Shown here: piece after piece, positions 7,808 through 10,251 of the stretch
Position numbering within the stretch: position 1 is the stretch's first letter
How the letters are laid out: each line of letters opens with the position of its first letter
Assembly: GCA_015689645.1 (NCBI GenBank)
Contig: WVSM01000004.1
Span: 248,001 to 312,000, forward strand
DNA length: 64,000 nucleotides
Reading direction: 5' to 3'
DNA from: Rhodobacterales bacterium HKCCE4037
GTDB taxonomy: Bacteria > Pseudomonadota > Alphaproteobacteria > Rhodobacterales > Rhodobacteraceae
Notes under the pieces: model-generated
What the model saw: only the letters and a program-made list of their open reading frames with translations
What the model was told of the DNA's origin: nothing
Database searches by the model: none
Position numbers and translations under genes: made by a program

Positions 7808-8659
7808 ATGACTCTACGCAAGATCCGGTTGAACGGCCCTGACGCGTCGGATGCGCCGACGTCGATCGGCGGACACCCCCGGCACAAAATCATCCGCGAT
7901 GGCCACGGTTCGGAAGCCGTGACCGATTTCCTGCCAGGCCGCGACACACTCTGTCTCGACATGCGCGAAATCACCGGCCTCTCCGACATTCACGACCGGC
8001 TGACCGAGGTGGCTGAAAACGCAACCCTGACATTCGACAATGGCGACGTGCTGACGTTCGTGGGTGTGGCTGCGTCAGACATCGTCACGGCGACGGTCAC
8101 GTTCGATGCAGGACCCGTGTGTCTTTCCGAAGGCACGCTGCTTTACACAGAACGCGGAGAGGTCGCCGTGGAGGAGCTGCGCCCAGACGATATCATCTGG
8201 ACGAAAGACCACGGCTGGCAGGCGATCCGCCTGGTAACCTTCACGGAAACGATTTTCACGGATCGGGAGGACCCCTCCAAGCCGGTGCTCATTCCCGAAG
8301 GCGCGCTTGGTTTCGCATCTCCCCACTCGGACCTGATCGCCTCCCCTCAGCAACGCATCCTGCGGATAAACGACGACACCGCGGAGGAGGTGCTGGTGCC
8401 GGCGATCGACTTGGTGGGCAGGAACGGCATTCGCCAGATGCGCGGAAGGAAGCGCGCGCGTTACCACAGCGTGGTGATGCAGAGGCACTCCGTCATCCAG
8501 GCGGCCGGATGCTGGGTGGAATCCATGCCGGTCAATCCGCACCTGTTGCAGAGCAACGGTCAGACCGCGCGGCGCCTGATAGAAGCCTGCAGCAAGGTCG
8601 AACCGATGCGCAGGGTCGAGAAAATCGGGGTGCGACCCCGTCGGCTGAAGTCGCGCTGA
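7808..8659 (+). CDS. Hint (hedgehog/intein) domain protein with RTX-like N-terminal segment
   Basis: A 283-residue protein. Residues about 30-100 resemble the tail of RTX/serralysin proteins (VTDFLPGRDTLCLDM, LTFDNGDVLTFVGV). A Hint domain begins at Cys105 (VCLSEGTLLYTERGEVAVEELRPDD) and includes the DLIASPQQRIL block. In most roseobacter Hint proteins that block reads SPQHR; here the His is Gln. The Hint fold performs self-cleavage or splicing in other contexts, but in these stand-alone bacterial proteins the role is not established. No signal peptide was seen, so export may be by a type I system, which is inference. The ATG at 7808 starts MTLRKIRLNG. Confidence 0.8.
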   Translation: MTLRKIRLNGPDASDAPTSIGGHPRHKIIRDGHGSEAVTDFLPGRDTLCLDMREITGLSDIHDRLTEVAENATLTFDNGDVLTFVGVAASDIVTATVTFDAGPVCLSEGTLLYTERGEVAVEELRPDDIIWTKDHGWQAIRLVTFTETIFTDREDPSKPVLIPEGALGFASPHSDLIASPQQRILRINDDTAEEVLVPAIDLVGRNGIRQMRGRKRARYHSVVMQRHSVIQAAGCWVESMPVNPHLLQSNGQTARRLIEACSKVEPMRRVEKIGVRPRRLKSR

Positions 8660-8715: not shown

Positions 8716-9180
8716 TCAGGCTTCGACTTTTTCAGCTTCGATCGCCTTGGCGCCGCTGGTTCCGATCTCGATCCGGCGCGGTTTGAGTGACTCGGGCACT
8801 TCACGCACGAGGTCCACGTGCAGCATGCCGTTCTCGGCCACTGCGCCGGTCACGCGGACATGGTCTGCAAGCTGGAACCGCTTTTCGAAGGCGCGGGTCG
8901 CGATGCCACGGTGCAGGTAGGTCCGCTCGGCCGTGTCATCCTTCTCCTTGCGGGCAGAGATCACCAGCTGGTGTTCACGCTGCTCGACGCTCAGATCGGC
9001 GTCGGAAAAGCCGGCCACGGCGACCGAGATGCGATAGGCATTCTCGTCGGTCTTCTCGATATTGTAGGGCGGATAAGTGGTGCCACCGGCATCCTGGCTC
9101 AGCACGCGGTCAAGCATGTCTGCCACGCGGTCGAAACCGACGGTTGCACGGTAAAGCGGCGAGAAATCATAGGTGCGCAT
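8716..9180 (-). CDS. Small heat-shock protein, Hsp20/IbpA type
   Basis: A 154-residue alpha-crystallin-type holdase chaperone that binds unfolding proteins in the cytoplasm without ATP. The N-terminus MRTYDFSPLYRATVGFDRV is characteristic of the IbpA group. The alpha-crystallin domain (about 36-130) contains YRISVAVAGFSDADLSV, LHRGIATRAFEKRFQL and the end-strand ENGMLHVDLVREVPE. A short acidic/Ala C-terminal tail follows. The mRNA leader carries a ROSE-like hairpin that pairs the whole ribosome site, and a sigma-32-like promoter sits upstream; see those entries. Expression should therefore rise with temperature at both transcription and translation. Confidence 0.94.
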   Translation of the reverse strand: MRTYDFSPLYRATVGFDRVADMLDRVLSQDAGGTTYPPYNIEKTDENAYRISVAVAGFSDADLSVEQREHQLVISARKEKDDTAERTYLHRGIATRAFEKRFQLADHVRVTGAVAENGMLHVDLVREVPESLKPRRIEIGTSGAKAIEAEKVEA

Positions 9181-9182
9181 GG

Positions 9183-9205
9183 GTTATCCTCCATTGAGCG
9201 ACAAC
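9183..9205 (-). promoter_or_regulatory. ROSE-like RNA thermometer in the hsp20 leader
   Basis: In the hsp20 mRNA the 23 nt ending 2 nt before AUG fold as GUUGUC-G-CUC, loop AAUG, then GAG-GAUAAC. This gives nine base pairs, one of them G-U, interrupted by a single bulged G. The left arm contains UCGCU, matching the ROSE consensus U-Y-G-C-U with its unpaired G, and the right arm contains the Shine-Dalgarno GGAGGAU. ROSE elements are established thermosensors in front of hsp20 genes of alphaproteobacteria. The fold and motif are read directly from the sequence; thermosensing here is inferred. Confidence 0.85.
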
Positions 9206-9284
9206 GATGTTGATGGGCTGCCCTGCTGTCAGGCGCAGGCCCGTTTGCGGTAGATGCCGGCCCGCTTGGCGGCGCCGACAGCTG

Positions 9285-9315
9285 GAATGTGGGTAGCGGT
9301 TTTCGGGCTTTCAAG
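9285..9315 (-). promoter_or_regulatory. Sigma-32 (RpoH)-type promoter of hsp20
   Basis: On the minus strand CTTGAAA (9309-9315) is followed after 16 nt by CCACATTC (9285-9292). This resembles the heat-shock consensus CTTGAA / CCCCATNT, with an exact -35 and two mismatches in the -10. Transcription would start about 95-100 nt before the ATG, leaving room for the thermometer and one or two additional GC-rich hairpins. Confidence 0.68.
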
Positions 9316-9325
9316 ACCTTTGCGG

Positions 9326-10174
9326 TCAGGGTCGGACGAAGCGCGCCCCGATGCCGTCGCGCGTGTCGCTGGACGGCGAGATGAAGGTGGTCGAACCGCC
9401 CCGGGTGGTGAAGGTGGCCACCGGCGCCTCGGCATCGAATTGCTCCAGAAGCGTGTCGACTTGCCCATCCAGCATGACGGCCAGCGAGACGTTCTCCCCG
9501 TCGACCAAGCCGATGGCCGACATGACGGCAACCACCTCGGGCCGGCCTTGCTCAACACGCAGGATCGGGGCGCCTGACGCGCCACGCACGACTTCGCAAC
9601 TGAGCGACCGCACCAGCCCTTGCGCGGCAAGGATCTCGCAGCCCTCCTCGATCGACGCATAGGCTTCCCGGTCTTCGCCATAGGAAATCACGGTCACAAG
9701 CCCGTCTTCGTTCAATGTGCCCGACGCTGCGATGGCCGGGATCGAGGCAGGCGACACCGGTTGCCTCAGTTCCAGCAAGGCCAGGTCCAGCCCGATCATG
9801 TCGAGATCCGGGCCCCGGTCGTGCCGGTAGCCGGGCATGATCGCCGCGCGCCGCACCTGGCGGATGGCCTCGGCCCGTCCGTTGCGCAGCCCGGCAAGAA
9901 AGCTGAAGTCTTCCGGGTTCAGTCTTGCGTGGGTTTCCGGATGGAACACGCAATGGGCCGCTGTCAGGACAAGATCCGGTGCGATCAGGGTGGCCGAGCA
10001 GAAGGAGATACCGGTATCCAGCCGCCCTACCGCCCGCCATTGCCGCGCTTCGGTGGCATCGGCCATATCGCGCAAACCGGCCCCTGCCGCACCTGAGCGC
10101 AACTGCGGCAGGAATTGCGCCGACAGAGGCATTGCAAGAAAGCTGGCCAGAAGGGCGACAAACAGTCGACGCAT
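9326..10174 (-). CDS. Exported trypsin-like serine protease
   Basis: A 282-residue protease. The signal peptide MRRLFVALLASFLAMPLSAQ is followed by a chymotrypsin-fold domain with catalytic His74 (LTAAHC), Asp130 (GLDLALLEL) and Ser200 (RGASGAPIL). The oxyanion motif reads G-A-S-G-A-P rather than GDSGGP. A cysteine pair C59/C75 next to the His matches the fold. The C-terminal 45 residues extend past the protease core. The ATG at 10174 is chosen because GGAG lies about 10 nt upstream and the signal peptide begins there. Likely periplasmic or secreted; the substrate is unknown. It is not in an evident operon, lying between hsp20 and glcF. Confidence 0.88.
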   Translation of the reverse strand: MRRLFVALLASFLAMPLSAQFLPQLRSGAAGAGLRDMADATEARQWRAVGRLDTGISFCSATLIAPDLVLTAAHCVFHPETHARLNPEDFSFLAGLRNGRAEAIRQVRRAAIMPGYRHDRGPDLDMIGLDLALLELRQPVSPASIPAIAASGTLNEDGLVTVISYGEDREAYASIEEGCEILAAQGLVRSLSCEVVRGASGAPILRVEQGRPEVVAVMSAIGLVDGENVSLAVMLDGQVDTLLEQFDAEAPVATFTTRGGSTTFISPSSDTRDGIGARFVRP

Positions 10175-10251
10175 GAGCGGGCTCCGGAAAGGGATCTCGT
10201 TCAACGCCTAGCCAGCAACCGGGGCGAAAATATGACCCGCTTTGAGCCGCT

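Follow-up and report, generated by a model that had tools for sequence, protein, structure and literature searches.

The hsp20 gene and its upstream region

The window, that is, the whole 64,000-nucleotide stretch of DNA analysed here, contains a small heat-shock gene, hsp20, whose protein product matches Pfam family PF00011 with 63.8 bits (cut-off 20.8). The whole feature, comprising promoter, leader, and hsp20, lies on the minus strand with the AUG at 9180, and the order toward the gene is promoter, GC-rich leader, GUUGUCGCUCAAUGGAGGAUAACCC, and AUG. The individual features are as follows.

8716 to 9180, minus strand: hsp20 gene, encoding a 154-aa small heat-shock protein
9183 to 9205, minus strand: ROSE-type hairpin, GUUGUC-G-CUC-AAUG-GAG-GAUAAC, from the fold, RNAalifold, pair counts, and model R2
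9187 to 9192, minus strand: Shine-Dalgarno sequence GGAGGA, paired in the hairpin except for the first G
9197 to 9201, minus strand: UCGCU, the U(U/C)GCU ROSE motif, with the bulged G at 9199, pairing with the Shine-Dalgarno sequence
9215 to 9242, minus strand: leader hairpin II, less certain, GGGC...GCCC with two bulges, from the minimum free energy (MFE) fold of the window only
9255 to 9280, minus strand: leader hairpin I, GC-rich with one bulge, near the expected transcript start, from the MFE fold
9285 to 9292, minus strand: -10 element CCACATTC, separated from the -35 element by 16 nt
9309 to 9315, minus strand: -35 element CTTGAAA of an RpoH (sigma-32)-type promoter, from the sequence and a strict pattern across loci

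The closest named hsp20 protein records are from uncultured Roseicyclus sp. (90% protein identity), and the source genome is Roseicyclus-like (Rhodobacterales). It contains two hsp20 genes, of which the one in the window is referred to here as the first, and an rpoH gene (368.7 bits versus a cut-off of 323.1). On the same strand as hsp20, a trypsin-like protease gene (9326-10204, Pfam Trypsin_2) ends 10 nt before the hsp20 promoter, and a gene for a 283-aa protein with a Hint_2 domain (7808-8659, plus strand) is convergent with hsp20.

RpoH-dependent heat-shock promoters have the consensus CTTGA at -35, a spacer of about 16 nt, and a CCNNAT-type -10 element. The sequence CTTGAAA-N16-CCACATTC, with its 16-nt spacer at 9308-9293, follows this pattern; rpoH is present in the genome, and RpoH would be expected to transcribe hsp20 from here. 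The promoter ends 79 nt from the ROSE-type hairpin, in agreement with an earlier note on this DNA that had described a heat-shock promoter about 80 nt upstream.

Predicted fold of the leader

The 109-nt leader has an MFE of -48.3 kcal/mol (z = -2.71), and equally good folds were obtained in 3 of 200 shuffles. The MFE fold consists of three hairpins (9280-9255, 9242-9215, and 9205-9183). Hairpin I has 10 pairs, each kept in at least 12 of 13 Roseicyclus-group leaders in their consensus structure. The form of hairpin II seen in the window is absent from this 13-sequence consensus, where a different short stem is drawn. The third, ROSE-type hairpin has 6+3 = 9 pairs, an AAUG loop, the bulged G at 9199, and one G-U pair in the lower stem, and it ends 2 nt before the AUG. 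The sequence details in the earlier note, namely a 9-bp hairpin hiding the Shine-Dalgarno sequence, a single bulged G within UCGCU, an AAUG tetraloop, and a G-U pair in the lower stem, proved correct base by base at 9205-9183; the strand (minus) had been left unstated, and the two further predicted hairpins had been overlooked, so that the element is larger than described.

The relevant passages of two reports define ROSE-like leaders by a U(U/C)GCU motif that pairs imperfectly with the Shine-Dalgarno sequence (PMC3669281, PMC11342760). In the window leader the motif does pair imperfectly with the Shine-Dalgarno sequence and holds a single bulged G, and the hairpin is the 3'-proximal one, directly before a gene identified as a small heat-shock gene by Pfam. 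The MFE fold also has the several hairpins (two to four) of a ROSE-like leader; hairpin I and the ROSE-type hairpin recur in the 13-sequence consensus, and hairpin II does not recur there in its window form.

Comparison with Rfam families

At curated cut-offs, Rfam gave no match in the window, and anatomy and comparison were therefore used to judge the case. A permissive scan of 301 bases gave a single match, to RF00435 (ROSE), lying on exactly the hsp20 leader with 20.9 bits and an E value of 0.46 over all families; the upstream hairpins align to the model only with insertions and non-standard pairs. The Rfam ROSE models, which had been proposed beforehand as a check, thus returned a score below the curated cut-off of 45 bits. 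Among 20 relatives' loci, none reached the RF00435 cut-off. A separate permissive scan covered 14 first-hsp20 and 6 second-hsp20 loci. In it, sub-threshold RF00435 matches lay on the leader in L007 (33.4 bits), L059 (28.5 bits), and L072 (26.4 bits), while the other 11 first-hsp20 loci (including the window's own, L003) and 5 of the second-hsp20 loci gave no ROSE match with an E value of 10 or below. The element is ROSE-like by anatomy, and by Rfam's own cut-off it is not a member of RF00435. The only Rfam match above cut-off in the 20 relatives' loci was an FMN riboswitch (L107, 3461-3606, minus strand, 119 bits).

Conservation and covariation of hsp20 leaders

A search with the hsp20 protein gave matches in 51 of 61 related genomes, and the best 30 loci were taken; from a further contig collection, the best 80 of 260 matches were kept. 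From 112 loci, L001 (a paralogue) and L002 (a copy of the window) were removed, leaving 110 that include the window's own locus. These contain contigs present twice from the two collections, and merging identical elements gave 93 distinct leaders.

In all 110 hsp20 loci, window included, the motif T[CT]GCT...AGGA lies within the 60 nt upstream of the start. Counted as T[CT]GCT-N2-10-AGGA, it occurs in 93 of 93 distinct leaders, whereas 100 dinucleotide shuffles gave a mean of 0.28 and a maximum of 2. Within the motif, U, G, C, and U do not vary across the 93 rows, and the bulged G is kept in every one. The strict promoter pattern was found at -160 to -115 in 76 of the 110 loci and is missing from 34. 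Counted by distinct leaders it is present in 64 of 93, where shuffles gave a mean of 0.83 and a maximum of 3, and the reverse strand 3.

RNAalifold on the 93 leaders recovers the bulged-G hairpin with 7 pairs. When the 9-pair hairpin is imposed on the alignment, 90.0% of 836 cells are paired, versus 85.9% in shuffles and 41.4-65.8% in slid versions. The two outermost pairs are unpaired in 28 and 45 of the 93 rows and are not kept across the order. Changes on both sides of a pair were counted in 30 cells versus 10.8 in shuffles, whereas one slid control (+2) exceeds the real hairpin in this count (36 versus 30). They fall at alignment columns 15-41 (9 rows), 16-40 (11 rows), 17-39 (2 rows), 20-36 (1 row), and 24-33 (7 rows). 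None of the 13 Roseicyclus-group leaders lacks any of the 9 pairs, and changes among them are one-sided only. Real pairs of arms have a mean minimum energy of -5.84 kcal/mol (92 of the 93 rows, a row with a gap in an arm being omitted) versus -5.05 when arms are re-dealt among rows, the lowest mean of 200 re-deals being -5.37. The compensating changes in the alignment fit the hairpin pairing.

A "wobble balance", in which a G-U at one lower pair would exclude a G-U at the next, was also considered. The association runs the opposite way (15/22 versus 28/70; odds ratio 3.2, p 0.028, with no correction for relatedness), and the idea was therefore dropped.

The second hsp20 gene and its leaders

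The earlier note described a single element and overlooked a second ROSE-like leader in the same genome. At locus L001 (contig C33, around 39.1 kb), UCGCU...AAGGA lies just before the ATG of the second hsp20 gene, and the leader has a sub-threshold match to RF02523 (ROSE_3; 31.7 of 43 bits). Whole-genome scans with model R1, described below, and with RF02523 did not list L001, and these scans are therefore not exhaustive. A second-hsp20 set of 41 loci was formed from L001 and 40 of the 48 lower-ranked matches that the protein search of related genomes gave outside the window's genome. A start was found for 40 leaders (the exception being L183), and that of L163 was wrongly picked. The strict motif is present in 30 of the 40 and, if AGG suffices, in 37, two of which (L180 and L186) appear to be out of register. 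R2, the other model described below, gives weak matches on second-hsp20 leaders, the best being 14.4 bits.

Covariance model scans

Two covariance models were used: R1, which includes the window row, and R2, built from 47 leader rows with none from Roseicyclus or Roseibacterium. At the window element R2 scores 33.1 bits (E 1.3e-9), the next best score in the 64 kb being 12.0 bits. R1, with the window row as part of the model, scores 39.9 bits there, versus 16.2 bits for the next match in the 3.8-Mb genome.

Across the class, R1 matched at E 0.1 or better in 64 of 142 genomes and gave no match at this level in 78. Of the best 29 class-wide loci, the window's own excluded, 18 match at a same-strand hsp20 frame, and the other 11 lie in mixed non-hsp20 contexts. 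Within the family, 89 of 120 genomes had a match at E 0.01 or better, and 31 had none at that threshold. Twenty-four of the 120 (G013-G036) were checked by locus and also searched with the protein: R1 matched at the first hsp20 in 18, only elsewhere in two (G016 and G017), and nowhere in four.

A wider R1 regulon was examined in 12 further stretches of the family scan, mostly second matches of a genome, and was rejected: one is an hsp20 locus (L209), and the 11 in other contexts are treated as background, as are the 11 class-wide loci without an hsp20 frame. Matches away from hsp20 score 20-27 bits. Their only recurring context is the D-Ala-D-Ala carboxypeptidase gene (L141 and L210; Pfam Peptidase_S11), where R1 matches inside the gene on the coding sequence for ASLTKMMT, a recurrent false positive for such models. 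Seven near-identical matches of about 23 bits occur in genome G055, in L140 and on six other contigs; the L140 match precedes a short frame that by eye resembles the start of a transposase, and may be a chance match carried by a repeat. In the family member G036 (L202), a match of 27.0 bits falls inside what looks, on visual inspection, like a longer, stable hairpin just upstream of a phage-type integrase gene. A single instance in the family member G026 (L203, 26.7 bits) immediately precedes a gene for an ABC-transporter ATPase (Pfam ABC_tran, OB_MalK); the section of PMC11342760 concerned reports ROSE-like leaders before ABC genes.

The leader as a candidate RNA thermometer

The region very probably serves as the 5' leader of a small heat-shock gene that RpoH transcribes, and in this role carries a ROSE-like RNA thermometer, which would melt with temperature and control translation. 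The sequence and position of the element, its conservation, the covariation of its pairing, its link to hsp20, and the rpoH gene support this. The earlier proposal of a ROSE-type thermometer and heat-shock promoter before hsp20 has gained support: the element is conserved in each of the 110 loci, its pairs covary, it accompanies hsp20 in other families of the class, and the genome has rpoH. At normal temperature, the 3'-most hairpin would pair UCGCU with the Shine-Dalgarno sequence and block access by ribosomes. Heat shock would increase the supply of message from the RpoH promoter and would open the hairpin, which the bulged G and the G-U pair weaken, allowing translation of Hsp20. Since the rpoH gene is present, an increase would be expected in both transcription and translation. 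Melting is proposed here by analogy with tested ROSE elements: as far as the portions concerned of PMC3669281 and PMC11342760 describe, ROSE-like leaders elsewhere have been experimentally shown to act as thermometers, and in one of them deletion of the bulged G lowers heat induction.

It is quite improbable that heat induction is purely transcriptional, through RpoH, with the hairpin only lowering basal translation and giving no temperature response in the physiological range. The promoter pattern conserved in most distinct leaders would suit this explanation, and so would the folding calculation, in which the Shine-Dalgarno sequence stays closed as far as 50 °C and is held more tightly than in the Rfam ROSE consensus stem. 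For the isolated window hairpin, the computed joint opening of GGAGG is <0.01% at 42 °C, reaching 0.02% at 50 °C, versus 0.04% and 0.18% for the consensus stem; stem energies at 37 °C are -8.5 and -8.2 kcal/mol, respectively. The "moderate stability suited to melting" ascribed to the hairpin in the earlier note is not borne out by these values. However, the same folding keeps the Rfam consensus stem >99.8% closed up to 50 °C, and because that stem also computes as closed, the calculation is a poor judge. Nearest-neighbour folding across temperatures, run for hairpin and leader with the bulged G present or deleted, thus makes the stem somewhat tighter than that of the consensus and neither confirms nor excludes melting. 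Also against a purely transcriptional response, the bulged G is retained throughout the 93 leaders even though the hairpin would, by computation, be about 3.8 kcal/mol more stable without it, which is what selection for instability would predict.

Another explanation, which we regard as barely tenable, is a protein or small-RNA binding site made up of the UYGCU and Shine-Dalgarno block with only incidental pairing. The core letters are indeed nearly invariant, as such a site would have it, and for this reason the core pairs give little covariation. Nevertheless, both sides change together at the five column pairs listed above, and second-hsp20 leaders swap the pair next to the motif, which is G-C in 18 of the 37 leaders with at least AGG and A-U in 13.

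A chance hairpin at the Shine-Dalgarno site is hardly credible: unrelated R1 matches are found at 11 of the 29 class-wide loci and 11 of the 12 further stretches, two of them inside carboxypeptidase coding sequence, but conservation in every hsp20 locus together with the shuffle controls, the R2 score obtained without Roseicyclus or Roseibacterium rows, and the gap between the first and second R1 scores in the genome, even with the window row in that model, argue against it.

Comparison with known systems

In the rhizobial-type ROSE elements of RF00435, UYGCU with a bulged G is paired to the Shine-Dalgarno sequence in the 3'-most of several leader hairpins. The window element shares this 3'-most hairpin, the several hairpins, the small heat-shock gene, and a similar stem energy, but it falls short of the RF00435 cut-off and is computed to open less. 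RF02523 (ROSE_3) has its sub-threshold match on the second-hsp20 leader of the same genome, whereas no match to it was reported on the window's own element. It is possible, though rather doubtful, that the hsp20 leaders of Rhodobacterales are a ROSE lineage of their own, lying below Rfam's ROSE cut-offs in every locus scanned.

In Pseudomonas ibpA, according to the parts of PMC3669281 that treat it, short ROSE-like thermometers have been shown by experiment to give heat-induced translation. As in the window, a sigma-32-type promoter and a UYGCU/Shine-Dalgarno hairpin precede a small heat-shock gene there, but the Pseudomonas leaders have two hairpins only, whereas three are predicted in the window leader. 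For Nautella sp. R11 of the Roseobacter group, the relevant portion of PMC3230580 reports ROSE-like motifs upstream of ibpA and hspD. This parallels the window's genome in having two small heat-shock genes, each with an upstream ROSE-like motif; the genus is different, and in that portion the motifs are predicted and given without sequences. Because the Nautella motifs have been reported (PMC3230580, in the same portion), this kind of element is already known in the group, and the window leader is an ordinary further example of an established thermometer switch. Understanding of RNA thermometers is unchanged by it. What it adds is a well-supported candidate thermometer in an order whose scanned loci fell below Rfam's ROSE cut-offs, together with a 93-sequence alignment and a model that could extend annotation.
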